NCBI GenBank assembly: GCA_040752835.1
Contig: JBFMGG010000008.1
Location: 1-64,000, forward strand
DNA: 64,000 nucleotides
Direction of reading: 5' to 3'
Source: Campylobacterota bacterium
GTDB taxonomy: Bacteria > Campylobacterota > Campylobacteria > Campylobacterales > Sulfurimonadaceae
Position numbers and translations under genes: made by a program. The notes beneath the pieces are model-generated. The model was not told the origin of the DNA, ran no database searches, and was given only the letters and a program-made list of their open reading frames with translations. Each line of letters starts with the position of its first letter. Position 1 is the stretch's first letter. This document shows positions 115-13,252 of the stretch, one piece after another.

Positions 115-1527
115 TTAAAGAGACCCGATTTTTTTGAAGAGGCTTTTGTGCGGTTTGACCTCGGTTTTGCATTCGGGGCAGATCCGTCTCACCAGCCGCT
201 GTGCGACGATCCCGATCAGCGAATCGGCGATGAGATAGGGCTGAAGTCCCATCTGGACCATCCTCCCGATGGCACTGGGGGCGTCGTTGGTGTGGAGGGT
301 CGATAAAACCAGGTGTCCCGTCAGGGAGGCCTGTGCCGCGGAGTTGAGCGTTTCGAAATCGCGGATTTCCCCGATCAGGATGATGTCGGGGTCCTGGCGC
401 AGAAATGATTTGAGCGCTTCGTTGAACCCGAAACCGATCCGGTCGTTCACCTGCACCTGCTGGACGAGGGGCAGCTGGTATTCGATCGGGTCTTCGATCG
501 TGAGCACTTTGTTTTCGATGCTTTTGATCTCATTGAGTGCGGCGTAGAGGGTCGTCGTTTTTCCGCTCCCGGTGGGACCGGTGATGAGGACGATCCCATA
601 AGGGGAGCGGATCATTTCATTGAATCGCTCGAGGTTTTTGTTTTCGAAGCCGAGTTCGTGGAGGTTGAGGAGGATCTTTTGCTGATCGAGGATCCGCATC
701 ACGATCGATTCGCCGAACAGGGTCGGGGTGGTCGAGAGGCGGAAATCGTATTTGTTGACGCCGATTTCGAGGCTGAAACGGCCGTCCTGGGCCTTTCGGC
801 GTTCGGAGATGTCGAGATTTCCGAGCAGTTTGATCCGCGACGTGAGTGCGGTGTAGATTTCGAGGTCGAATACGAACGTCTCCTGCAAAATCCCGTCCAC
901 CCGGGTGCGTACCGACATCCCCTGGGCATCGGGTTCGACGTGCAGATCGCTGGCGCGGCGGAGAATCCCGTCTTTGATGATGAGCAGTATCAGCTGCATG
1001 ACGGCGCTCGATTCGGCATTGGCCGCCTTGAGCCCTTCATTATTGATTTCGCGCTTGATCTCCTGGGCGATGGTCTGGGTTTTTTTGACGATCTCGAGGC
1101 GCTGGAAAATGTGTTTGATGTCGGTGCTGAACGCAAGAAAGATTTTGAGCGGCTTGGTCGCAATGTTGCGTTCGAGCGCATCGAGCCCTTCGTAGTTGAA
1201 CGGGTCGGAGGTGGCGACGTAGACGTAGTCTTCGTCCTCTTTAAACGGGATCGCTTCGGCGCCGACGAGCAGCGGAAGGGGAAAACGCTCAAGGGCGTGG
1301 AGGTCGATTTTCTGGCCGTAAAGGTCGACAAACTCGATATTGAGTTGTTTGGAGAGGATGACGGCGATCTCTTTTTGGGTGATGAATCCCTCTTCGATGA
1401 GGATTTCCCCGAGCTTTTTGAGGAAGCGGGACTCTTTTTGTTTTTCCAGTGCCTGGTTCAGCTGGGCCGGGGTGATGAGATCTTTTTCGATCAGCAGGTC
1501 GCCGAGGTGTATTTGCGGGCGTATCAT
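115..1527 (-). CDS. mshE: MshE/GspE-type pilus assembly ATPase, C-terminally shortened
   Basis: Cytoplasmic ATPase that would power pilus extension. The N-terminus (residues 7-61) carries two back-to-back 24-residue MshEN-type motifs (HLG..LL...LIT and KLG..LI...FIT, each ending KQ). Then come the Asp box ASDLHVEPD (192-200), Walker A GPTGSGKT (317-324), Walker B DIILIGEIRD (381-390) and His box STLHTNDA (409-416). The frame stops at residue 470, just after the first zinc Cys pair CPEC (450-453); relatives run about 100 residues further, with a second CxxC and the C-terminal subdomain. ATG at 1527 lies 1 bp after the stop of the upstream gene. Last gene of the pilus operon in this window. Whether the short form still works is unknown. 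Confidence 0.9.
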   Translation of the reverse strand: MIRPQIHLGDLLIEKDLITPAQLNQALEKQKESRFLKKLGEILIEEGFITQKEIAVILSKQLNIEFVDLYGQKIDLHALERFPLPLLVGAEAIPFKEDEDYVYVATSDPFNYEGLDALERNIATKPLKIFLAFSTDIKHIFQRLEIVKKTQTIAQEIKREINNEGLKAANAESSAVMQLILLIIKDGILRRASDLHVEPDAQGMSVRTRVDGILQETFVFDLEIYTALTSRIKLLGNLDISERRKAQDGRFSLEIGVNKYDFRLSTTPTLFGESIVMRILDQQKILLNLHELGFENKNLERFNEMIRSPYGIVLITGPTGSGKTTTLYAALNEIKSIENKVLTIEDPIEYQLPLVQQVQVNDRIGFGFNEALKSFLRQDPDIILIGEIRDFETLNSAAQASLTGHLVLSTLHTNDAPSAIGRMVQMGLQPYLIADSLIGIVAQRLVRRICPECKTEVKPHKSLFKKIGSL

Positions 1528-1528
1528 C

Positions 1529-2284
1529 TCATCTCCATGTCCGGATCAGGTCGGCGGCCGCTTTGGAATTTTTGTAGTTCAGGTAGAGCTCCAGGATGCC
1601 GATCGCTTCGGCCGTGCGCCCCTGGGCGTGCATCGCCCGCGCGTAGAGCAGCCACGACTCTTCCCCCTCGCGGTTGATGCGGTTGGCTTTTTTGGCCCAG
1701 ATCGCGGCGTCGATGTAGTTCTCTTTGGCATAAAAATCGCGGGCGGCGGCCATCGCGGTTTCGTATTTGGGATTGTTGTAATAGGCGTCTACCGGATTGA
1801 GGGCGCTTTGGGTGTTGACCTGGAACAGCGTGCTGGGCGGAGAGGGGATCGCGGGGACCGTGTTGTCGCGGGGCTGCGAGGGTGCTTCGGGCATCTCGGG
1901 CAAAGCCTGGGGGGATACGGGCTCGCCTGCGGCCGAGGGTTTTGGCGGGAGGGGTGCCGCGGCCGGGGTCTTGGGCGGATATTTGGATGCCCGCCCTTGG
2001 CCGCCTTTGGACGGTTCTTGGTGCGTGAAGGGAGCGGTTTCGTTGAGCTCGTCGACCGCGGGGAGGACGTTTTGAGCAATCGGCGCGGGAATGGGCGGCG
2101 GCGCTTTTGTCGGGGAACCCGCATGCGAGGGGGGCGGCGTTTGGGGGGCGAACCATACCCGATACGCCGAAATTCCGGCAATGAGAAACAGCAGTATCCC
2201 CGTCACGATCAGCGAGATGCGGATCATACGGCGGCGTCTTGAGGCCTGGCAGCGGGCGACGAGCTGATCGAAATTCTCAATCAT
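1529..2284 (-). CDS. MshN-like membrane-anchored TPR protein
   Basis: 251 residues. A short basic cytoplasmic tail (SRRRRMIR) leads into one transmembrane helix (about 21-42), then a long Pro/Ala-rich linker, then a C-terminal helical region (about 165-251) with TPR-like spacing (ARDFYAKENYIDAAIWAKKA, then a repeat with ARAMHAQGRTAEAIGILELY). This order of parts and its place between the MshM-type ATPase and the MshE ATPase match MshN of MSHA pilus operons, which is thought to act in pilus assembly at the inner membrane. Its start overlaps the end of the preceding gene by 8 bp. Function is assigned from architecture and neighbours, since linker sequences of this type diverge fast. Confidence 0.75.
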   Translation of the reverse strand: MIENFDQLVARCQASRRRRMIRISLIVTGILLFLIAGISAYRVWFAPQTPPPSHAGSPTKAPPPIPAPIAQNVLPAVDELNETAPFTHQEPSKGGQGRASKYPPKTPAAAPLPPKPSAAGEPVSPQALPEMPEAPSQPRDNTVPAIPSPPSTLFQVNTQSALNPVDAYYNNPKYETAMAAARDFYAKENYIDAAIWAKKANRINREGEESWLLYARAMHAQGRTAEAIGILELYLNYKNSKAAADLIRTWR

Positions 2285-3068
2285 GGATCAGCTCCGCGCT
2301 CATCGCCGCCATCGTGATCGTACACGACGAGGGACGGAGGTATTTCGTTTTCCGGTGGGCGTTGGTGTAGTGCAGCAGATGGAAAAAATGGTAAAAGAGC
2401 TTTTTGAAATTCCGGAAGTTGCCGCCGCTGATGCGGTGTGCTTTTTTGATCAGGGCCGGGGAGAGCTCGTCGATGTCGGCATAGCCGATCCGCAGCAGCT
2501 CCCGGTAGAGGTAGTTTTTGCATTCATTGGGGGTGAGACAGGAGAGTTCGACGACCCGGTGGGGGCGGCTTTTGAAATGGGGGGCCTGCAAGATCGCCTC
2601 CCCCTCTTTTTTGTGCATGGCCAACAGAAACCAGAACGCCTGTGAATCACTGAGCATCCGGACGAACTCACGCATTTCGACGCTGAGCAGCTGCGCTTCG
2701 TCGATCATGACGACGTGGTCCGTGCCGCGATAGAGCTCCGTCGCCTGCACCCGCAGCCGTTCGATGTCTTCCCCTTCGGCGACGACCCCCTTGTGGCGGA
2801 TGAGCTGGTAGAGAAAACTCAAAGGGGTGATAAAAGGGGTCTCGATCAGGATGACGTGGCGTTTCTCGTACCAGCGGTCGTAGAGGAGGTTGAGGAGAAA
2901 GGTTTTGCCGCTGCCGGGCTCCCCGATGAGGTAAACGGGCTGCGGGAATTTTTCGTCGAGGCAGGTAGCGATTTTATCGATCGCCGAGAGGGCGCTTTGC
3001 ATTTCGAAATAGTCCTGCGTATTCCGCCGCTCTTCGAACCGTTCCGCCGCTTTGAGCCAGGTCGTCAT
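2277..3068 (-). CDS. mshM: MshM/ExeA-like AAA+ ATPase
   Basis: P-loop ATPase of the ExeA/MshM group, which work with secretins and pilus assembly at the cell envelope. Walker A GEPGSGKT lies near residues 49-56 and Walker B reads HVVMIDEAQ. The C-terminal half has the helical lid seen in this group (SGGNFRNFKKLFYHF). I chose the ATG at 3068 (MTTWLKAAERF), which sits 1 bp after the secretin stop, over a start at 3095 that would run 27 bp into the secretin gene. There is no transmembrane segment and no peptidoglycan-binding domain, so it resembles MshM more than full-length ExeA. Confidence 0.8.
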   Translation of the reverse strand: MTTWLKAAERFEERRNTQDYFEMQSALSAIDKIATCLDEKFPQPVYLIGEPGSGKTFLLNLLYDRWYEKRHVILIETPFITPLSFLYQLIRHKGVVAEGEDIERLRVQATELYRGTDHVVMIDEAQLLSVEMREFVRMLSDSQAFWFLLAMHKKEGEAILQAPHFKSRPHRVVELSCLTPNECKNYLYRELLRIGYADIDELSPALIKKAHRISGGNFRNFKKLFYHFFHLLHYTNAHRKTKYLRPSSCTITMAAMSAELIHD

Positions 3069-3069
3069 G

Positions 3070-4581
3070 TCAGTCAAACCGTTTGAGCACCGCATCGTCG
3101 ATCGTGGGAAGGGTGTCTTCCTTGATCAGCGTCGGGGTAATCAGGATGAAAAGTTCGCTTTTGCGCACCGTGTCGGTGGTGTTGTGGAACAGCCGACCGA
3201 AGAGGGGAATATCCCCGACCAGCGGCACTTTGGTGTCGTTTTTATCGATTTTTTTCTCGATAAGCCCGCCGATGAGGACTTTTTGGGAGTCTTTGACCTT
3301 GACGATCGACGTCATCTGTTTGACGCGGGTATCGGGAGGCATCGCCCGCTCGGTCTGGGTGGTCGAAGAGGAGGACCCCCCGTTGCCGGAGAGCTCCGAG
3401 TCGTCGATCAGTTCGCTGGTAATCGGGTTGATCCGCATGATGATGTAACCCTCTTCGGTCACTTCGGGGATGATGTTGAGCGTCAGCCCCACGAAGACCG
3501 ATCCGAGGGTGTTCGTCGTCGTCGTCGGGGTCGAAGTGGTGCCGATGATGCTGCCGTTTTGGTAGAGGTAGCTCAGCTGCTGTCCGACGTTGATGACGGC
3601 GGGCTGATTGTTGAGGGTGAGCACTTTGGGGTTCGAGAGGACTTCGACGTCCCCGTAGGTTTTGAGAAAATCGATCAGCCCGGCCGGGTTGAAATCGATA
3701 CCGAATTTGTAAACCGGGTTGGCGACCCCGGTGTTGTTGAAGCTGTTCGAATAGGTACCGTTCAGTGCGAGGCTGAAGTTGCTCCAGTTTACCCCCACCG
3801 AACTGTAGTCGTTGTACGTGAGTTCGATGAGGTGCGCTTCGAGCATCACCTGCGCGTGCATCCGGGATTCGAGTTTGTCGAGATAGCGTTTGACCTCCGC
3901 CAGCTGGCGTTTGGTCGCGGTGACGCTGACGACCGCGGCGTCGCGGTTAACCATCGTTTTGTGGAGGGCTTCGTTGTAGGCGTCGTCGACCTGGAGGATT
4001 TGCTGGATGTGCTCTTTGAGCTGATCCCAGAAGGTAAACGTCGAAATTGCGCGGACCTTGGTATAGTCGGTGTTGGACCCGCTGCTGAGGTTTCCCGATC
4101 CCGATACGTTGTTCCCGGTTCCCGCAACATTTCCGGTCGTACCGTAGCCCCCCGAAGAGGTTCCGGCGTTGGTTCCCGGCCCCACGGTGATCGATTTGGT
4201 CGATTCGGTCACCAGCTCAGACATGTTGATGTAATCGACGTTGAAGTTGACCGTTTTGGTGTAGGAGACCCTCACGACCCCGCGTTGGGCGTCGTAGGTG
4301 TGAAAAAGGTTGTGTTCGTCGAAGATGAACGCAAAGAGTTCGGGGACGCTGTAGTCTTGGATATTGACCATGTCCAGCGGCTGCATCAGCTTTTCGCGGG
4401 CGAGGTTGTCCTCGAACACGACGCTGATGTTGCAGGTCTGCGCCACGTCGCGCACGAGATCGAGCAGGGTAAGCCCGCTTCCGCGGTTTTGGTAGGCGTT
4501 GAGGCTGAACCGTTTGTTGTCGCACTCCTGAGCCCCGAACAGGGCCGAAACAAAGATCAGCGTCAGGAAAAATATTCTCAC
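3070..4581 (-). CDS. mshL: MshL-type outer-membrane secretin
   Basis: Secretin that forms the outer-membrane gate for the pilus. GTG at 4579-4581 gives a 503-residue product with a signal peptide (VRIFFLTLIFVSALFGAQ) and overlaps the upstream stop as GTGA; the longer open frame back to 4722 lies inside that gene and is spurious. An N-domain (LTLLDLVRDVAQTCNISVVF) precedes a Gly/Ser/Thr-rich stretch at about residues 120-165. The C-terminal secretin domain has VGLTLNIIPEVTEEGYIIM, the loop region with Ser/Gly runs, and VPLVGDIPLFGRLF followed by ELFILITPTLI. No C-terminal pilotin-binding extension is apparent. Confidence 0.9.
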   Translation of the reverse strand: MRIFFLTLIFVSALFGAQECDNKRFSLNAYQNRGSGLTLLDLVRDVAQTCNISVVFEDNLAREKLMQPLDMVNIQDYSVPELFAFIFDEHNLFHTYDAQRGVVRVSYTKTVNFNVDYINMSELVTESTKSITVGPGTNAGTSSGGYGTTGNVAGTGNNVSGSGNLSSGSNTDYTKVRAISTFTFWDQLKEHIQQILQVDDAYNEALHKTMVNRDAAVVSVTATKRQLAEVKRYLDKLESRMHAQVMLEAHLIELTYNDYSSVGVNWSNFSLALNGTYSNSFNNTGVANPVYKFGIDFNPAGLIDFLKTYGDVEVLSNPKVLTLNNQPAVINVGQQLSYLYQNGSIIGTTSTPTTTTNTLGSVFVGLTLNIIPEVTEEGYIIMRINPITSELIDDSELSGNGGSSSSTTQTERAMPPDTRVKQMTSIVKVKDSQKVLIGGLIEKKIDKNDTKVPLVGDIPLFGRLFHNTTDTVRKSELFILITPTLIKEDTLPTIDDAVLKRFD

Positions 4582-4937
4582 GGAAGATCCTTGGCCCGAA
4601 GGACCGGGCGGGTAGCGCCGACGCCGAAGACGACGAGGCGGTTCCCTTCCCTGAGGCCGACGAAACGGTTTTGGATGTAGGCCACTTCCCGGTCGTTGAC
4701 CTTGTCGCCGACGCGGTACCATGCCCCGTTGATAAACGCTTTGTCGTTCATTACCGCGCTCACCAGCGTCACCGTCGCAGGCTGCGGTGCGGCGAGCATC
4801 GGCGGAGGGGGGAGCAATGCGGATGAGGGATTCGCATTTTTAGGGCGGGCCGCTTTGCGGAATGGGTCATACATCTGCGCGTCCAGTGCGGTTGAAACGA
4901 TCAGGCAGGCAATTATCCATGCGGTCATTCTCCTCAT
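4578..4937 (-). CDS. MshK/PilP-like small pilus assembly protein
   Basis: 119 residues with a hydrophobic N-terminal segment (MTAWIIACLIVSTALDA), a Pro-rich linker (LLPPPPMLAAP), and a small beta-type domain (INGAWYRVGDKV, then VVFGVGA). This is the layout of MshK/PilP-type proteins, which link the inner-membrane complex to the secretin. It overlaps the MshJ-like gene upstream by ATGA (4934-4937) and the secretin downstream by GTGA. Identification rests on size, layout and operon position rather than on a diagnostic motif. Confidence 0.65.
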   Translation of the reverse strand: MRRMTAWIIACLIVSTALDAQMYDPFRKAARPKNANPSSALLPPPPMLAAPQPATVTLVSAVMNDKAFINGAWYRVGDKVNDREVAYIQNRFVGLREGNRLVVFGVGATRPVLRAKDLP

Positions 4938-5563
4938 ATTTCGATCCCCATGTAGAGGATGACGGCGGTAAAACGCGGGTTCTTCTCGCCGGCGCGTATG
5001 TGGACGCTTTTGACCTGAACCAGCGTGTTTTGCGCTTCGGCAAACGACAAAAACTCCGCGACGGCGGGGAACCTTCCGTTCCCGGTAACCGTCAGTTGCT
5101 TGAGTTGTTTGACTTTTCCGTAGAACACTTTGTCGGTATCGACCGATTCCATCGTCTCGATTTCGAGGCCGAGCTTCAGGGAACGTTCCAGTAGAATATC
5201 CAGCATTTTAGCATAGCGGCGGTTGTCGAACAATAGCCCCTGCGAATCGGACATCTGTTCGAGCAGGGCGATTTTGTTTTGGCGAAGCCGTTCGAGTTCG
5301 TCGTTTTTCTGAGCCAATTCATGATTGACGCGGGCGATTTTTTCCCGGTAAGCCGCGGGAGAATTGCGTTCGACCGTTGTTTCGAGCTCTGCGGTTCGGT
5401 CTTTAAGTGCGGAGAGTTTGTCCAGGGTGTCGGAGATGAAAAACATCCAGCTCATCATCAGGATCCCCGCGCTGATGATGGCGTAAATGAGCCGCCGTTT
5501 GAACGGCTCGTAGGCTTCGAGCTGGCCGTCGAGGATCTCGAGACGGTAGTCCATGCGACTCAT
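4934..5563 (-). CDS. MshJ/PilO-like inner-membrane protein
   Basis: 209 residues: cytoplasmic N-terminus (about 1-24), one transmembrane helix (about 25-44, LIYAIISAGILMMSWMFF), a coiled coil (about 50-100, [24 protein letters not shown]), and a C-terminal ferredoxin-like domain (LKQLTVTGNGRFPAVAEFLS). That order is typical of PilO/MshJ, part of the inner-membrane alignment complex with PilN and PilP. Start overlaps the upstream gene as ATGA at 5560-5563. Confidence 0.75.
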   Translation of the reverse strand: MSRMDYRLEILDGQLEAYEPFKRRLIYAIISAGILMMSWMFFISDTLDKLSALKDRTAELETTVERNSPAAYREKIARVNHELAQKNDELERLRQNKIALLEQMSDSQGLLFDNRRYAKMLDILLERSLKLGLEIETMESVDTDKVFYGKVKQLKQLTVTGNGRFPAVAEFLSFAEAQNTLVQVKSVHIRAGEKNPRFTAVILYMGIEI

Positions 5564-7026
5564 CGGGTCACCTTCACGACGGCGTTATAGGTGTCGTTGT
5601 CCAGGGTGATCTCGTCGGTTTGCACGTTTTGGTATCCCAGGGCGTAGAGACCGCTCATCAGTTTGGCGATGTCGTCGCGTTTACGGTAGTCGGCGACGAC
5701 ATGCAGCGCCATCCCTTTGGAACCGTTTTGTTCCATGCTCAGCGTTCCGAGACGGTAGCGCCCCAGCTCGGACGTGACGTCGAGAAGCATTTGCTGGCGT
5801 TTGAGATGCATTTGCCCGATCAGCTCGGCGGTTTCGCGGCTGCCGCGTACCATATCGATTTCCCGGTTCAGCGCTTCGGCGTCGTGACGCGCCTTTTCGA
5901 GCTGCCGCATCCGGTCGCCGAGCGTCGATGAGAGTTCACTGCTCTGCCCTTCGATGCGTGAGAGCGTTTGGATCAGTTCCGCGTTGCGGCGGGTTTCGTC
6001 CGAAATCTGCCACGATATCGCCAACGGCGCTGCCAGGGCGACGAGTACAGACGCGGCGATGACGCTTAAGAACTTTCCGCTTTCGCGCCGGTACCACGGT
6101 GCCTGGCGTTCGAACGGGGAGAGGTTGAAAGAGGTGTTTCCCATCTGCCCTGCGAGGTGTTCGGCGCACAGCAAGTCGTGGAGAGCGTCGTCGGCGGGGT
6201 GTCCTTTGGTGATCGGAGCGATGGGGGCGCGGGTGATGCCGTAGGCCTCGAAAACGCTCTCCAGCCCCGGTATCGTATGTCCCTTGAAATCGAGATAGAT
6301 CCGGTCGATTTCGGTGAGGCCGAACAGTCCGCGCTTGTGGTTGATCGTATGGACCAGACGTTCGACGTTGCGCGAGAGGGCATCCTGGATCAGCAGGCAT
6401 TTGGCCGATTCTTCGGGGGGATAGTTATCCTCGACGACGCCCCGTTCCCAGAGAACCCTGAACAGCGTTTCACGCTCGCAGCCGCATTCCGCGGCGAGCG
6501 CGGCGAGGCTCTCCAGGCTCCGGTGGGCGATGTAATGCCCCTCTTGGTAGATGGCGGCGTAGGATTCGTTGTCGCCCAAATGGAGGAAAAGGTCGTTTTT
6601 CCCCGGCGGGGTGGTGCCGTCGTAAAACGATCCGTACACCATGATGGCGGGTACGATGAGGTCGATCGATCGGGTTTTGGCGAGGGCGGCGGAAAAATAC
6701 TCGGCTGCTTTGGCATGTGAGAGGGCAAACGCTTCGAACAGGTAGCTGTTCTCGCTCGGAAGGTCATGGCGGACGTAGGCGATCGTATATTCTTCGTTGT
6801 TCTCGAGATTTCCCTCTTCGAACATCCGGATTTCGACGAGGATTTTCTGTTCTTCCTCGCTGAGATGGTTCGGGAGTTTGAGCGTGTGGATGTTGAGCAG
6901 GGAGAGGGGGACGATAGCCCCAGAGGGGATTTTTTGAATGTCGCGGCCGTCCGGTTCGCCGAATACTCCGTCCGTGTAGGTCGATGTCGCGTCATGATCA
7001 ATGTAGAGAATCGTGTTCAGGGGCAT
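5560..7026 (-). CDS. MshI-like protein: PilM-like head fused to PilN-like tail
   Basis: 488 residues. The first 300 or so look like a divergent actin-fold PilM-type cytoplasmic domain (MPLNTILYIDHDATSTYTDG at the start; FLHLGDNESYAAIYQ; IDRIYLDFKG). A transmembrane helix follows (about 330-350, LSVIAASVLVALAAPLAI), then a coiled coil (IEGQSSELSSTLGDRMRQLE) and a PilN-like ferredoxin fold (MALHVVADYRKRDDIAKLM). In many type IV pilus systems PilM and PilN are separate; here they are one polypeptide. It should bridge the cytoplasmic ATPase to the MshJ/MshK/MshL assembly. The head domain is too divergent to be sure of nucleotide binding. Confidence 0.7.
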   Translation of the reverse strand: MPLNTILYIDHDATSTYTDGVFGEPDGRDIQKIPSGAIVPLSLLNIHTLKLPNHLSEEEQKILVEIRMFEEGNLENNEEYTIAYVRHDLPSENSYLFEAFALSHAKAAEYFSAALAKTRSIDLIVPAIMVYGSFYDGTTPPGKNDLFLHLGDNESYAAIYQEGHYIAHRSLESLAALAAECGCERETLFRVLWERGVVEDNYPPEESAKCLLIQDALSRNVERLVHTINHKRGLFGLTEIDRIYLDFKGHTIPGLESVFEAYGITRAPIAPITKGHPADDALHDLLCAEHLAGQMGNTSFNLSPFERQAPWYRRESGKFLSVIAASVLVALAAPLAISWQISDETRRNAELIQTLSRIEGQSSELSSTLGDRMRQLEKARHDAEALNREIDMVRGSRETAELIGQMHLKRQQMLLDVTSELGRYRLGTLSMEQNGSKGMALHVVADYRKRDDIAKLMSGLYALGYQNVQTDEITLDNDTYNAVVKVTR

Positions 7027-7054
7027 CGGTCCGCTTTGTTCGTAGATAATGTGC

Positions 7055-7507
7055 TCAATTATTGTACATGATTATAGCATATCCGCTTTGGGGAAAGAGA
7101 CGGATGAGGACATCGCTCTCTTGCTCATCGTCGGCGTTGTGAAACGTGATGTCGATCGGCGCGTGGATCAGGCTCTCGAGAGCGATCGAATACCCCATAT
7201 CGTGGGGGCGGCCAAGCGCGTCGAAACAGACGGTATCGCCGCGCCCCGTGTGGGTGATCGTCGAGCGGATATCGTGTGCGGAGGTGGCGTTCTCCTCGAG
7301 GCCCGCTTCGGTGAGGGTGACGCACCCTTGCGACTGCACCCCGTCGTACCCGATCGCGCGGTAGCGCGCCTCTTTGAGTTTGAGGAGGGCGTACTGGGCG
7401 TCTTCGTAGGCGTTGTTGGAGCGGTAGGTGTAAAAACCGATGCCGCTGACGATACCGATGAGGACGATGACGAAAATAAATTCCAACAGGGAAAACGCTT
7501 TTTTCAT
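7055..7507 (-). CDS. Type IV pilin-like protein (minor pseudopilin)
   Basis: 150 residues with a class III signal: MKKA followed by FSLLEFIFVIVLIGIVSGIG. Prepilin peptidase would cut after Ala4, leaving Phe1 and the conserved Glu5. The short leader and hydrophobic helix are typical of a pilin. The C-terminal domain has one pair of Cys (QSGCV.. and DTVCF). It overlaps the preceding minor pilin gene by ATGA and sits 28 bp before the MshI-like gene. Probably a minor or priming pilin; its exact homologue (MshB, C, D, O or P) cannot be told by eye. Confidence 0.8.
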   Translation of the reverse strand: MKKAFSLLEFIFVIVLIGIVSGIGFYTYRSNNAYEDAQYALLKLKEARYRAIGYDGVQSQGCVTLTEAGLEENATSAHDIRSTITHTGRGDTVCFDALGRPHDMGYSIALESLIHAPIDITFHNADDEQESDVLIRLFPQSGYAIIMYNN

Positions 7508-7938
7508 GGGCGTTGCAGACTCCTTCGTTCCAGCCGGATCGGATGGAGCACTTTGGCGCCGGAGGCGGTCGTCACGACGACCCTCATGCTGAGCATCCCG
7601 TGCGAGGGGGTATAAGTGATCGGGGTATAAGGGACGTTCGTGCAGCCTGAGCCGTCGGCGAGGTAGTAGCGTTCCACCCTCACCAGCGCGTTAAAGCGCT
7701 GATCTGGGGACGTGACGTTCAGTTCCCTCAGGCAGCCGCCGCCGCTTCGGTCAAAGGCGCTGATCCGCAGCAAGGCCGCTTCGGTCGCGCTTTGCATGAA
7801 CAGCTCGGCCTGCTCGCGGGTGTAGCTGTCGACGTAATGGTTGACGTTGATGGAGGCGTATTTGAGGGTTACCGTCACAATCCCGCCGACGAAGATGAGG
7901 ATCGTCAATGCCTGCGGCAGTCCAAACGCGCGGCGCAT
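7504..7938 (-). CDS. Atypical minor pilin without Glu5
   Basis: 144 residues starting MRRAFGLPQALTILIFVGGI. The leader and hydrophobic helix fit a pilin, but after predicted cleavage at Ala4 the fifth mature residue is Gln, not Glu, and Pro sits at position 4. Loss of Glu5 is a known feature of tip pseudopilins such as GspK. Two Cys (GGGCLREL and GSGCTNV) could pair. ATG shares one base with the upstream stop (TGATG). I infer a tip or priming subunit. Confidence 0.7.
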   Translation of the reverse strand: MRRAFGLPQALTILIFVGGIVTVTLKYASINVNHYVDSYTREQAELFMQSATEAALLRISAFDRSGGGCLRELNVTSPDQRFNALVRVERYYLADGSGCTNVPYTPITYTPSHGMLSMRVVVTTASGAKVLHPIRLERRSLQRP

Positions 7939-8774
7939 CAGAACACCACCTTTTGTTTGGAGAGCTTCACGGGGTTCAGGCTGCCGCGGACGGGACGGTT
8001 CATGTCGATGGAGAGACGGATCGTGCCGTTAAGCATCTGGGCGCGGAACGCGTTGACGCCGGTGGCGACGACGGTGACCTCCCCGTCGCAGAAATTTTCC
8101 CCTTTCCAGGGGCGGTAGTTGTAAAACAGCAGCAGGGTGTCGTCGTCGAACGCGGGATTGGGAAAGCATGACGCGGCGTGTTCTTTGCGGGTGAGCGCGT
8201 ACGCCGAATCGGCGATGCGGTACTGCTCGTAGATCGTTTCGGGCGGGGTGCCGCCCAGCGTGATCGCGTTCGGAAGGCTACCGCTGATGGCGTAGCCTTT
8301 GAACGTCGTTCCCGAAAAGACGAGGAGCAGGTCGGAAAAATCGAGGGCGGGATCGTTCCATTTGATTTTTTCGCGGGCGAGCAGGGCGGAGAGGTTCGTG
8401 TCGGGGGAGTAGAGGGTACGGGTCGCAAAATCGGAGCGGTTGAGATCGACGAATCCGCTGTAATCCCCCGCCAGATAGCCCTCGTTCGCCGAGCCGTACC
8501 ATTCGAGGATCGTTTTGTCGTTCACTTCATCCAGCGGGCGGTAGGGACGCGTGTCGTTGAAGTCGAACCCGACGGCTGAGAAGGGGATGCGGTTGTAGAG
8601 GAGCGAACTGATCTGATCCAGGGCGCTTTGCGAATCGATCGAAAGGGTGCTGAACGCCTTGGCCTTTTCCGAGCGCAGAGCGATCGCTTCGAGCGCTTTG
8701 AACATCCCCATCGAGAGGATCCCCGCGATGGCGACGGTGAGGATGATTTCGATCAGGGTATAGCCGCGGCGCAT
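7938..8774 (-). CDS. Large type IV pilin-like protein (MshO/PilW-like)
   Basis: 278 residues from the ATG at 8774, which gives MRRG followed by YTLIEIILTVAIAGILSMGM, a canonical prepilin peptidase site with Glu5. A longer frame to 8849 would put 25 extra residues before the leader and overlap the upstream gene, so it was rejected. The large C-terminal domain contains two Cys (AASCFPN and ENFCDGEV). The size and position among minor pilins suggest an MshO/PilW/GspJ-type subunit. Confidence 0.8.
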   Translation of the reverse strand: MRRGYTLIEIILTVAIAGILSMGMFKALEAIALRSEKAKAFSTLSIDSQSALDQISSLLYNRIPFSAVGFDFNDTRPYRPLDEVNDKTILEWYGSANEGYLAGDYSGFVDLNRSDFATRTLYSPDTNLSALLAREKIKWNDPALDFSDLLLVFSGTTFKGYAISGSLPNAITLGGTPPETIYEQYRIADSAYALTRKEHAASCFPNPAFDDDTLLLFYNYRPWKGENFCDGEVTVVATGVNAFRAQMLNGTIRLSIDMNRPVRGSLNPVKLSKQKVVF

Positions 8775-8776
8775 CG

Positions 8777-9427
8777 TCAGTTCCAGGGGATCGAGTTGAT
8801 CTGTGCCGTACCGATGTTGAAGGCGTGGTATTGCAACACGCCGATGCATCCGCTGTGGCGGTGGTCGACATGGTAGCCTACTTTGACGGTGACGTATTTG
8901 GTGTTGCTTTTGGACCCGGCTGCCAGGGGAACGGCGGAGAGGAGCGCCGTTCCCGCCGGCGGAGGATCGGCGACGTAGACGACGGTTGGGGTGAGGGTGT
9001 AGAGCTTTTCTCCCGTACTGCGGGAACAGTTACTGTCGGTGTCGATGGGGAGGGCGTAGTCGTCCACGTCGTTCATGTCGCTTCCCTCCGCTCCCGGTGA
9101 TGAGGCGTTGTAATCGATCCCCGCGGGTTCGATGCAGTTGCGTCCGCCGACGAACCCGCCGATCCGGTAGCCCCCGGTCGTATTGCACTCGTAAGCGGGA
9201 TTGCCGTGGGTAACGTGCAGGATCTGGGGGTGGAGGGTATTGTTTTCGTCCCAGGGGAGGTTGACGATGGCGCCCATCAGTGTCATCGCATTGTACATCG
9301 CCTCTTCCTTGACAGCGGTCTGTGAAGTTTGGTTGAGGGCGTGGATGAGGCGGGGAATGACCGTGAAAACGACCCCGATGATGACGGTGGCGAGGATGAG
9401 CTCGATCAGGGTGAGTGCGCGTCTCAT
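8777..9427 (-). CDS. Type IV pilin-like protein (MshD-like)
   Basis: 216 residues from the ATG at 9427, overlapping the adhesin stop as ATGA. The leader MRRA precedes LTLIELILATVIIGVVFTVI with Glu5. Four Cys occur in the mature domain (YECNTTGG, GRNCIEP, SNCSRST, SGCIGV), which could form two disulfides. The open frame upstream to 9820 lies inside the adhesin gene and is not coding. It is 2 bp before the next pilin-like gene. Confidence 0.8.
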   Translation of the reverse strand: MRRALTLIELILATVIIGVVFTVIPRLIHALNQTSQTAVKEEAMYNAMTLMGAIVNLPWDENNTLHPQILHVTHGNPAYECNTTGGYRIGGFVGGRNCIEPAGIDYNASSPGAEGSDMNDVDDYALPIDTDSNCSRSTGEKLYTLTPTVVYVADPPPAGTALLSAVPLAAGSKSNTKYVTVKVGYHVDHRHSGCIGVLQYHAFNIGTAQINSIPWN

Positions 9428-12276
9428 CGGAATACCTTCTCCCCCTTCTGGATGATTTTTTTCGCCGGCGTCAGCGGGAAATCCGATCCCGTGAAGTTTC
9501 CGCTCGTGACGCCGCCGACGGGGGCCGTTCCGAAAAAACGGTAATCGAAACACGGGTGGCGCGAGCAGGTGGTGCCGTCGGCAAAACTGTAATCGTACCC
9601 CGTAGAGTACCACAGCCACGAAGGAATTTCCAAATGGATCAGGGCATGCGCAACGCCGTCGGGATTGACGATACGGATCGGATGCACTCCGTTGAAGGGA
9701 AGGGGGGAAGGATCGATCGAAAGGCTCGAAGAAACTCCCGTTTTGGTCGTCGTAGGGTAATCGTTTCCGCTGAGGACCCCCCCCTGTGCGAGGGAAGAGT
9801 GCCCCAGGTTGCGGTACCATCCCAGGACGTTTTGGGGCATCCCGGCGACGTAGGGCGTGGGAACCGAGCTGTAGACCTCGAGCTCGATGGGGTTGGGTGC
9901 GTTCGTCTGGTCAGTGGAGAGGTCATATCCCCTTGCCCGACCGTAGACGAAGGTCGCGGTTCCCGTCGGGAGCGTCGTCCCCTCGACGCCGTCGGCATCG
10001 TCTACGTCCAGGGCGCTCAGATTGAAATCAAAAGGGTTCAGCGCAACGGAGCGGCTGCGGTCAAAGTTGATCCCCAGTTTCAGCACCGCCGATCCCTGCA
10101 CGAACCGTTCGGGTGAGAGAGCGAACGCGACGGGGGAGGGTTTGGTGACGTTCCCCTCTCCCGCGCCGTAGAGCTCGTAATAAAACACTTTGCCCAGCGC
10201 CGAGGGGAGAGGTGAATAGGAAAACTGCACCCCGGCGGTTTTGGCGTAACATCCGGCGGTGTAATTGCGGGTGACGTTCCCCTCGGCATTTTTGGCGGTG
10301 ACGTTGGCGTCGAGCTGGGCGGACATGTTCAGATCGTTCGAGAGATAGGTGAACTCCCCTGCGTTGAAGTTTGCAAGCGTCGCATTGATGTCGAAACGGT
10401 GCGGTTTGAAGACGATTTGGGCATGGGCGTTCCCGATCGGAAGGAGGTCGGCGGTAAACGCGCTCCCGTCGCTGACGTTGGCGTCGTCGCAGTCGATTCG
10501 GGTGAAACGGGCGGTGCAGGGGAACGAAGTATCGGAGATGTTGACGTCGAGCACTCCCGCTTCGGCGTAACGGGTCGTAAACGCCCGCGTCCCTTCCGCA
10601 AAGGCCCACCCCGACAACGGCGAAGGATTCAGCGTCCCGCTGACGCAATCGGGGTTGTGTTCGGCGTAGCTGACGCCAAACCCGGCTCCGGCGCTTTCGT
10701 TGTATCCGGCGGTAGGGGCGGCCGTAAAATCGGGGGCGCTGAAGGTGAGGTTGAAATCGCTCCCGGCAATCCCCTGCGGCGCACTCAGCGCAAACGCGGC
10801 GGGACGGACCGAAAAATAGTCGCTCGCGAGGGTCGTGTTGTCTTCGCTCGCCAGCGGGCAGGGGAGGGTGACGCCGCGTTTCCAGTGCAGCCTCACCCCG
10901 GCGTAATCGCTGCCGCCGACGGCCCGTGCGACGCTGAAAAGGGCGTTCTGGGTCTGCGTCGAGGCAAACAGCAGCTGCGCCCAGCCGGTGATCGGTGTGC
11001 CGCTTCCATCGACGATCGCGGCGCATACCGTGCCGTTGAAATCCTGCATCGAGGTGCGGGCCGCATCGAGCGACGCGACGGTGAGGGTGAAGCTTTTACC
11101 TGCGATTTTGGTCGAAATGTTCCGGTCGGCGATGCTTCGAAACGGGTCCCAGGCATCGAAGCGTCCTCCGAAGGGGGGGACGTAGGTGATGACATTGAGG
11201 GTATCGGAGGCGCTTGCGGTGCCGGTGTTGTTTTGTTTGAGCGAGAGGGTCGCGGTGTCGGTGATCGTCGTCCCTGCAGAGGCGGTGACCTGCAGCTGCA
11301 GGTTGATTTCGGCGCTCGAACCGGTAGGGAGCGAGAGGAGATAAGAGCCGTTCACAAGTCGCCAGAAAAACTGCGGTGAGGTGGAGACGACCGTTCCGTA
11401 GGGGCTTGAGGGCATCAGGGGATCAAGCAGCGTCCCTCCGTCGTTTGAGACGTAGGAGAGTCCTGCGGGGATGAGGTTGGAGACGTTGACGTCGGTGACG
11501 CCGATCGATCCGAGGGCGGGGTTGGATATCCGCAGGGTCAGGGTCACCGTATCGCCGCTGTAGGCTTCGGTGCGATCAAAGAGCGCTTCGATCGAGACGG
11601 CGGCACTCAAATTCGAATCCGGGGGAAGCAGATCGGTATTGGGGACGCCGGGCGAGGGGGTGATCTCTTCGTCGGTTCCCGGATAGGTCTGGTAAAAGTC
11701 GCCGCTCCCGTCGGTGAGCCGGGCAAACGACTGGAGATTGGGGTCAACGCTGTTCATCACCAGGCTGCACGAAGAGGAAGCGACCGCATAATAATTGTAC
11801 TGCTTGTTTTTGTAGTAGTTGAAATAATCGACGACCACGGCGGCCCCCTCGCTTAGGGGGGCGGTCGTGTTGGCGATGAACACCTCTCCGTCGGAGGGGT
11901 CGAGATCGTCGATCTGGTAGACGATGATGGTCCCTTTGGGATAGGTGGCGGCGGTGTCGCTTCCCGTCGAGCCGTCGGGATAGCGTACGTCCCCCAGCCC
12001 GCTGCCGATGTCGATGTATTTGTGGGTGTTGTGGTCGTTGATGTAAAGCCGCCAGCCGCTGATCGTCGTCGTTTCGTTGAAATAGATCTCGACCATCTCC
12101 AGGTAAAGCCCCGATTGGGTGTAGAGTTCGTTGGCCGTCACGGTACGGATTTGCGCCGCGGGAGAAGCGCAGTTGAGGTTCATGATAGTGGCGGGCGGAG
12201 TGTAGGGGGTTCCGTCGTCGGCGTAGCTCACGAGGGTGAGTAACAGCCACAGCACGGCACCCAGGGCTCTTTTCAT
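9424..12276 (-). CDS. MshQ-like exported pilus-associated adhesin (LTD + DUF11 + DUF6701-like)
   Basis: 950 residues, the largest protein of the cluster. A signal peptide (about 1-19) is followed by a lamin-tail-like domain (about 40-212: MVEIYFNETTTISGWRLYIN early, and a closing SPGVPN turn), a DUF11-like immunoglobulin repeat (about 225-365: YSGDTVTLTLRISNP, IPAGLSYVSNDGG), and a long C-terminal region of about 580 residues with the FSVRPAAFAL signature and beta-rich, Cys-containing sequence of the MshQ/DUF6701 family. No transmembrane anchor is seen at the C-terminus. MshQ proteins are encoded in MSHA operons and are thought to be exposed at the pilus tip or surface. It lies between the major-pilin-like genes and the minor pilins. 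Good AAGGAAA ribosome site before ATG 12276. Confidence 0.8.
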   Translation of the reverse strand: MKRALGAVLWLLLTLVSYADDGTPYTPPATIMNLNCASPAAQIRTVTANELYTQSGLYLEMVEIYFNETTTISGWRLYINDHNTHKYIDIGSGLGDVRYPDGSTGSDTAATYPKGTIIVYQIDDLDPSDGEVFIANTTAPLSEGAAVVVDYFNYYKNKQYNYYAVASSSCSLVMNSVDPNLQSFARLTDGSGDFYQTYPGTDEEITPSPGVPNTDLLPPDSNLSAAVSIEALFDRTEAYSGDTVTLTLRISNPALGSIGVTDVNVSNLIPAGLSYVSNDGGTLLDPLMPSSPYGTVVSTSPQFFWRLVNGSYLLSLPTGSSAEINLQLQVTASAGTTITDTATLSLKQNNTGTASASDTLNVITYVPPFGGRFDAWDPFRSIADRNISTKIAGKSFTLTVASLDAARTSMQDFNGTVCAAIVDGSGTPITGWAQLLFASTQTQNALFSVARAVGGSDYAGVRLHWKRGVTLPCPLASEDNTTLASDYFSVRPAAFALSAPQGIAGSDFNLTFSAPDFTAAPTAGYNESAGAGFGVSYAEHNPDCVSGTLNPSPLSGWAFAEGTRAFTTRYAEAGVLDVNISDTSFPCTARFTRIDCDDANVSDGSAFTADLLPIGNAHAQIVFKPHRFDINATLANFNAGEFTYLSNDLNMSAQLDANVTAKNAEGNVTRNYTAGCYAKTAGVQFSYSPLPSALGKVFYYELYGAGEGNVTKPSPVAFALSPERFVQGSAVLKLGINFDRSRSVALNPFDFNLSALDVDDADGVEGTTLPTGTATFVYGRARGYDLSTDQTNAPNPIELEVYSSVPTPYVAGMPQNVLGWYRNLGHSSLAQGGVLSGNDYPTTTKTGVSSSLSIDPSPLPFNGVHPIRIVNPDGVAHALIHLEIPSWLWYSTGYDYSFADGTTCSRHPCFDYRFFGTAPVGGVTSGNFTGSDFPLTPAKKIIQKGEKVFR

Positions 12277-12313: not shown

Positions 12314-12787
12314 TCAGGGTTCGATCAGTTTAAAGACGCCCGTCGTCGAATTGTATTCCCAGTAATCGTCCCCGTCGGGTTTGTTGGGAATGCCGCGATG
12401 TTCGGTCTTGTTTCCGGTTGCCGGACCGTAATAGCGGGGAGGAGTGAACGCGTCGTTGCGGACCCATTCCCCGTTCTCGGCATTTTTCAGCAGGTTTTTG
12501 AACGGGTTGGCGGCATCTCCCATCGCTTCGGCTTCGGGGTAGCCATAGCTGTTGAGCAGCGAAGAGTTCTGCTCGTTCCCCCACGTGAACATACACCCGT
12601 TCGTGATCCACTCCCCGTGCGTCGCGTCGATGGCGCTCTGGACCGACGAGGCGGTTGAGAGCTCCGAGGCGATTCTCGAATTGTCGATGAGATCCCCAAA
12701 CCGCGGAATCACGAGGGTCGAGAGGATCCCGACGATGACGACGACGAGAATGAGTTCTATGAGGGTGAACCCTTCCCGTTTGGTCAT
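12314..12787 (-). CDS. Type IV prepilin
   Basis: 157 residues. The ATG at 12787 (MTKREG, then FTLIELILVVVIVGILSTLV) has an AAGG ribosome site 7 bases upstream; the alternative TTG at 12793 lacks that spacing. Cleavage after Gly6 leaves Phe1 and Glu5. The mature part has a single Cys (TNGCMF) and ends in a Trp/Tyr-rich segment (DDYWEYNSTTGVFKL) typical of MshA/GspG-like pilins. Located between the first prepilin and the adhesin. Confidence 0.85.
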   Translation of the reverse strand: MTKREGFTLIELILVVVIVGILSTLVIPRFGDLIDNSRIASELSTASSVQSAIDATHGEWITNGCMFTWGNEQNSSLLNSYGYPEAEAMGDAANPFKNLLKNAENGEWVRNDAFTPPRYYGPATGNKTEHRGIPNKPDGDDYWEYNSTTGVFKLIEP

Positions 12788-12796
12788 GCCCAAACC

Positions 12797-13252
12797 TTAG
12801 TAAGTGACGGTTTTGTTCAGATCGGCACCCGTAACGGAGCTGACGTTCAGGTCGCTCAGACATTTTGACTGACTGACCGAATCGACGAAGTTGTCACAAT
12901 CGATCAGATACTGCACGCTGCGGTCGGCGAGGTTGAGGCGGATTGTCGCGACCGTCCCTTCCGTCGTGATGTAGTTGTACGTTCCGTTGGTGTCGTTGGC
13001 GTCGTATGACCACCCTTTGCCCGATACGTTGACCAGTTCGGAGAGGGTGAATTCGCTGTCGTTTTCAAGCCCTACGCGGTTGACCGCGGCGTTGATGGCG
13101 CTGGTTGCCGTGTCGATGGTCGTTTTGATAACCCCTTTGACTTCCGCGTTTTGCTGCAGGTTCAGATACTGCGGGATCGCGACGGCCGCCAAAACCCCGA
13201 TGATGACGATGACCATAATCAGCTCGATGAGCGTGAATGCACTACGTTTCAT
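12797..13252 (-). CDS. MshA-like prepilin, first gene of the pilus operon
   Basis: 151 residues: MKRSA then FTLIELIMVIVIIGVLAAVA, followed by IPQYLNLQQNAE, the post-helix sequence characteristic of MSHA major pilins. Two Cys near the C-terminus (LIDCDNF and SKCLSDL) are placed for the C-terminal disulfide loop of type IV pilins. As the promoter-proximal gene it is the best candidate for the major pilin. Cleavage would be after Ala5 rather than Gly, an accepted but less common variant. Confidence 0.85.
   Translation of the reverse strand: MKRSAFTLIELIMVIVIIGVLAAVAIPQYLNLQQNAEVKGVIKTTIDTATSAINAAVNRVGLENDSEFTLSELVNVSGKGWSYDANDTNGTYNYITTEGTVATIRLNLADRSVQYLIDCDNFVDSVSQSKCLSDLNVSSVTGADLNKTVTY

Follow-up and report, generated by a model that had tools for sequence, protein, structure and literature searches.

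A probable adhesin of an MSHA-type pilus with a lamin-tail-like head that was most likely exchanged between lineages

A sulfur-oxidising bacterium encodes, among the genes of a type IV pilus, a protein of 950 amino acids that seems to be put together from unlike parts, which raises the question of whether head and body of this protein share one history. The gene is a genuine ORF with an ATG start, located on the minus strand at 9424–12276 of the window, by which we mean the whole stretch of 64,000 nucleotides analysed here. The initial annotation, made from the DNA letters, had described a composite pilus adhesin with an N-terminal lamin-tail domain (LTD), a DUF11-type repeat and an MshQ-like C-terminus, and had considered its place in the operon unusual.

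All features given below lie on the minus strand. The protein begins with a signal peptide, MKRALGAVLWLLLTLVSYA (residues 1–19, 12220–12276), read by eye in the translation and found at the same place in three full-length relatives. This is followed by an LTD-like domain ending in SPGVPN (about residues 36–214, 11635–12171) and by a DUF11 repeat (residues 228–351, 11224–11595), for which both PF01345 (29.3 bits, cut-off 24.6) and TIGR01451 (26 bits) scored over their cut-offs. The rest comprises a conserved junction, FDAWDPFRSIADRNISTKI (FDAWD...NISTK, residues 373–391, 11104–11160), the DUF6701 or MshQ-type body (about residues 367–950, 9427–11178), which is covered by a profile of 34 bodies, and the C-terminal tail KGEKVFR (residues 944–950, 9427–9447). 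DUF6701 (PF20419), which we take to be the MshQ body, scored 46 bits (cut-off 27) over 9874–10839 and was found in none of 14 control genomes. The domain was absent from the plain hmmscan output for the 950-aa protein, and hmmscan reported it in just 2 of 36 homologues, so that the model is barely sensitive here. Both the DUF11-type repeat and the MshQ-like C-terminus were thus borne out. A Pfam Cohesin match (E 0.00084) was below its cut-off and overlapped DUF11, and was rejected. The Pfam scan of the window protein found no nuclease or hydrolase domain, nor any match to the PilC/PilY1 C-terminal family at E up to 1, and an Rfam search of the 64-kb window returned no matches.

We then examined the head. 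Pfam LTD (PF00932) did not match the window protein. Four relatives of the head matched it under the cut-off (E 0.0006–0.0073, 17.1–20.6 bits against 34.3), namely the fragments of G168 (0.0006), G120 (0.0013) and G305 (0.0073) and the head of a Sulfurimonas MAG (0.0029), and no Pfam LTD match was obtained for the heads of a Sulfuricurvum MAG and of G197. As reference for profile–profile comparison we aligned ten LTDs of the same phylum that score above the Pfam cut-off, leaving out two sub-cut-off matches. Against these, hhalign gave a probability of 90.6% with five head rows and 95.5% with seven; control alignments of DUF11, Calx-beta and LamG stayed at or below 1.7%, and none of 20 column-shuffled heads exceeded 0.72%. 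Among the columns invariant across all seven are NE, E.Y.N, I and a late G, which presumably represent the LTD signature. The structural check proposed for head and body failed: the AlphaFold2 models, each from a three-row alignment, had pLDDT values of 44 (head) and 34 (body) and were kept out of the evidence. Foldseek with the low-confidence head model returned nothing at E <0.03 and placed lamin chains (Ig domains) at ranks 21, 25, 32 and 42, and a PDB profile search with the head found no LTD, its best match being ShosT (E 0.02). Since profile–profile support stands beside the Pfam miss, the poor models and the non-significant Foldseek result, we call the domain LTD-like, by remote homology only, rather than a member of Pfam LTD. 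The lamin-tail claim stood in this weaker form, and the domain reading of the initial annotation is right in substance.

The DUF6701 gene is the third, after two pilin genes, in a complete one-strand MSHA-type pilus locus. Both pilins (12797–13252 and 12314–12793) match PF07963 over its cut-off, and the true start of the second may be an ATG two codons further in. An MshD-like minor pilin (8777–9427, N_methyl below cut-off) follows; it starts at 9427, where its ATG and the stop of the DUF6701 gene overlap as ATGA. Next come an MshO-like minor pilin (7938–8849, PF07963 over cut-off, conserved order) and an MshP-like protein (7504–7938), the latter recognised by position, resemblance and conserved order, with no match in the family search. 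The remaining locus (115–7507) holds a GspH-like pilin, MshI-, MshJ- and MshK-like genes, the MshL secretin, MshM- and MshN-like genes and an MshE-type ATPase. For the secretin, TIGR02519 was the best family by E-value with 233.6 bits, under its cut-off of 250.2, and the c-di-GMP domain of the ATPase (NF053729) reached 62.6 bits against a cut-off of 38; the other Msh names come from gene order and resemblance. The association with a pilus was thereby supported. In Vibrio, mshQ is the last gene of the operon, and a peculiar position had been claimed for the present gene. It is indeed third, yet the order Q-D-O-P followed by the machinery is the same around the homologues, with an MshD-like gene recognised immediately after the DUF6701 gene in 32 of the 41 loci, and an odd operon position was rejected as this order is ordinary in the bacterial family. 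L060 was the only locus seen with the MshP-like gene upstream, and not downstream, of the DUF6701 gene.

How widely are the two parts distributed? Of 151 genomes screened in this family, 77 contain a match to the 950-aa protein. Just four among the matches listed start further towards the N-terminus than residue 30, those in G094, G116, G121 and the genome of the window itself; the match in G120 spans residues 45–213 alone, at a contig end, and all others listed start past residue 300. Two of the matches that reach into the head come from named MAGs, one of Sulfuricurvum sp. and one of Sulfurimonas crateris. Of 298 genomes of the phylum, 136 matched the 34-body profile. Among 398 genomes in the order, just 4 matched the head profile, including that of the window and with G094, G116, G121 and G120 presumably outside the sample, in agreement with the rarity proposed for a lamin-tail head. 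LTD-like N-termini also precede Calx-beta, DUF11 and a DUF6701 body in G197 and are joined to a DUF6701 body in a 3002-aa protein of G154; the head fragments of G120 and G305 stop at contig ends, and a scan of viral contigs with the head gave no relative. In a set of 36 full-length proteins from the same bacterial family, the body is shared and the front ends vary, carrying mostly carbohydrate- or adhesion-type modules: Laminin_G_3 (14), DUF11 (12), Calx-beta (9) and, more rarely, H-lectin (3), cadherin (2) and L-type lectin (2); PilY1/PilC was absent from the 25 families listed for the 36 homologues. When proteins were paired by body similarity, 15 of the top 20 pairs (normalised body score at least 0.51; pairs non-independent) had head scores of at most 0.11.

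Some loci showed further peculiarities. In L039 (7622–11635), an extra copy of the segment that follows the junction (query residues 372–602) lies inside the head region, as if head-junction units were stacked. In G197, a Pfam HEPN protein (L078, 9037–9438) lies directly upstream of the LTD-headed gene and overlaps its start, and in G168 (L073) frames resembling HepT and nucleotidyltransferase were seen by eye directly upstream of the LTD-headed gene. A toxin–antitoxin module adjoining the head might be a mark of mobility.

We compared the identities of head, body and neighbouring genes between loci. Relative to the window, the Sulfurimonas MAG protein is about 61–62% identical in the head and about 28–29% in the body, and its neighbours MshD, MshO, MshP and MshL are 32, 35, 43 and 38% identical. 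The opposite was found for the congener G057: the body is 58% and the neighbours (same order) are 73, 74, 70 and 68% identical, with an unrelated head at 25%, which is the background for forced alignments. The best single change point lay after residue 398 for the Sulfurimonas MAG (61 to 28%, LLR 51.8) and after residue 370 for G057 (25 to 58%, LLR 52.7), so that the two strong change points flank FDAWDPFRSIADRNISTKI. For G094 and G116, which have both parts in common with the window, best change points were weak (LLR 3.1 and 12.4). In a maximum-likelihood tree of 34 bodies, the LTD-head label, for a group named ahead of building the tree, changes three times, as forced by starred branches, these changes having no direction so that gains and losses are not told apart. 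A single clade of LTD-headed proteins was rejected on this tree (AU p 0.0009, log-likelihood 116 lower). Given the discordant identities, the change points at the junction and the AU rejection, we consider a transfer of the head between lineages most likely, with the body kept alongside its locus.

Base composition did not point to a recent foreign origin, as there is no step in GC or GC3 at the junction of the window protein (GC3 0.79 in the head, 0.76 in the body). The even GC3 of the Sulfurimonas MAG gene (0.24 and 0.22) speaks against an assembly chimera. The window (1–64000) has a G+C content of about 56%, compared with 43–48% in the congener loci L033, L034, L036, L037 and L038, and L032 (58%) is the sole congener locus like it.

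The same patterns could arise without exchange if the LTD-DUF11 head were ancestral, slow-evolving and lost elsewhere. The undirected changes on the body tree, the absence of a GC3 step and the head identity somewhat above that of the body between congeners too (63 vs 51%) are in line with this view, yet we hold it to be quite unlikely. The Sulfurimonas and L033 (G116) heads are 68% identical, more than the 64% between the window and L033 heads, whereas the bodies of the same pairs show the reverse (34 vs 50%). The abrupt drop of identity at a single place likewise speaks against this view, as does the same head in a third lineage: in G168 (family f19) it is 73% identical to that of L033 over 99 residues, the contig ending before the body. 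Loss elsewhere would also have to account for a head profile that matches so few genomes of the order.

Two further alternatives concern the nature of the head and not its transfer. It could be another beta-sandwich that carries LTD motifs by chance, as the Pfam miss and the Foldseek ranks of the poor model would permit; the hhalign probabilities against LTDs, with three other beta-sandwich sets and the shuffled heads near the floor, make this very unlikely. Or it could target or anchor the protein to the membrane or cell envelope and bind no ligand, since a membrane-directing role has been suggested for bacterial LTDs (cited in the accessible part of PMC6085458). This too is unlikely, as LamG, lectin, cadherin and Calx-beta, binding or spacer modules, fill the same place in other homologues, and most bodies have no LTD-like head. 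An exchanged head that probably binds ligands is the reading we retain, and the separate histories of the two parts strengthen the earlier notion of an MshQ body with a binding head.

The C-terminal tail was examined in 41 loci by reading the last residues and seeking MshI/J/L/M-like genes downstream; 34 offered the required room of at least 5.6 kb, the other 7 having too little or being cut. In all 34, tail type matched locus type: the 21 machinery-bearing loci all had tails of the form G[VIE][KR][VIL][FL]R, and the 13 loci without machinery all had other tails, NRR/SKR..W (8) or YAP..R (5). The tail types form separate clades on the body tree, and common ancestry of the body clades could alone explain the agreement, which is also compatible with docking of the tail on a matching set of minor pilins. 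The window's genome encodes a second DUF6701 protein (G000:C1, L109, 8235–13004) of 1589 aa with the tail YTPSTR. Only MshD-, MshO- and MshP-like genes were found beside its gene, with no pilus machinery recognised within the stretch examined, and it is possibly an alternative tip cassette.

Like MshQ of Vibrio, Shewanella and Aeromonas, the window protein is a large non-pilin of an msh locus with MshD/O/P-like minor pilins and a DUF6701-type body; it differs in that its gene is third, before the mshD-like gene, and not at the operon end, and in its LTD-like and DUF11 head, Vibrio MshQ being compared here by description and not by sequence. A conserved C-terminal part, differing N-terminal domains, an own minor-pilin cluster and several copies per genome have been described for PilY1 of Myxococcus and Pseudomonas in the available portions of PMC13190605 and PMC7541494. 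The window protein resembles PilY1 in its conserved C-terminal body, varying N-terminal heads, minor-pilin cluster and occurrence in more than one copy per genome; having no PilY1/PilC family match, it would be a functional analogue and not a member. Binding modules are also carried by the bimodular pilins PilB and PilC of Streptococcus sanguinis (PMC8179133, PMC9934059, as far as accessible); these are pilins, whereas the window protein starts with a signal peptide and lacks a pilin motif. As in the nuclease ExeM and similar secreted bacterial LTD proteins (PMC6085458, in part), its LTD-like domain stands right after the signal peptide; unlike them, it has a pilus-type body and no nuclease or hydrolase domain.

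The build is modular, with a conserved D-O-P locus unit and separate histories of head and body. Judged from sequence comparison, the 950-aa protein is probably an adhesin that would sit at the pilus tip and carry an exchangeable head, an MSHA counterpart of PilY1. A simple model would involve export by Sec, docking of the conserved C-terminal tail on the minor pilin complex, and priming and capping of the pilus by the docked body, with the head displayed outermost at the tip, where it would bind a surface or glycan. Exchange of the head would then alter what the pilus holds and leave pilus assembly unaltered. As the MshE-type ATPase has a c-di-GMP-binding domain, extension is probably controlled by c-di-GMP, as in Vibrio cholerae. 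Taken jointly, a modular non-pilin tip component of an MSHA-type pilus, with an exchanged outermost head and c-di-GMP-controlled extension, seems to us a likely reading. In its favour, MshQ of V. cholerae is called a putative adhesin and its loss reduces surface MSHA; against it, pili there are still made without MshQ, at a lower level, and retract (PMC7096442, accessible part). The role of bacterial LTDs is given as unknown in the seen part of PMC6085458, which also counts against the explanation, as do the low confidence of both structure models and the Pfam LTD result. More tentatively, and with somewhat less than even confidence, DUF6701 proteins of the Campylobacterota may in general be exchangeable-head tips: conserved body and tail would fit one out of several minor-pilin cassettes, N-terminal binding heads, LTD-like ones included, would be swapped between species by recombination at FDAWD...NISTK, and each genome could hold alternative tips for one pilus.

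Variability of MshQ is already known, with mshQ strain differences and host specificity reported in V. fischeri (PMC4094467) and an mshQ size difference in Shewanella (PMC7439477), both as far as these sources are accessible. The literature searched, mostly titles and listings, contained no description of head exchange or LTD heads on MshQ, and no paper of the open literature searched named DUF6701. The unexpected element is what was most likely a whole-head exchange between genera at a conserved junction, on a pilus body for which a PDB profile search, run to E values of 10, turned up no sequence relative of solved structure. Should heads be exchanged while the body stays constant, pilus binding specificity would become readable, predictable and testable per module, as for PilY1, and bacterial lamin-tail domains would gain a setting for direct binding tests. 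The protein appears to be a pilus tip with an exchangeable grip.
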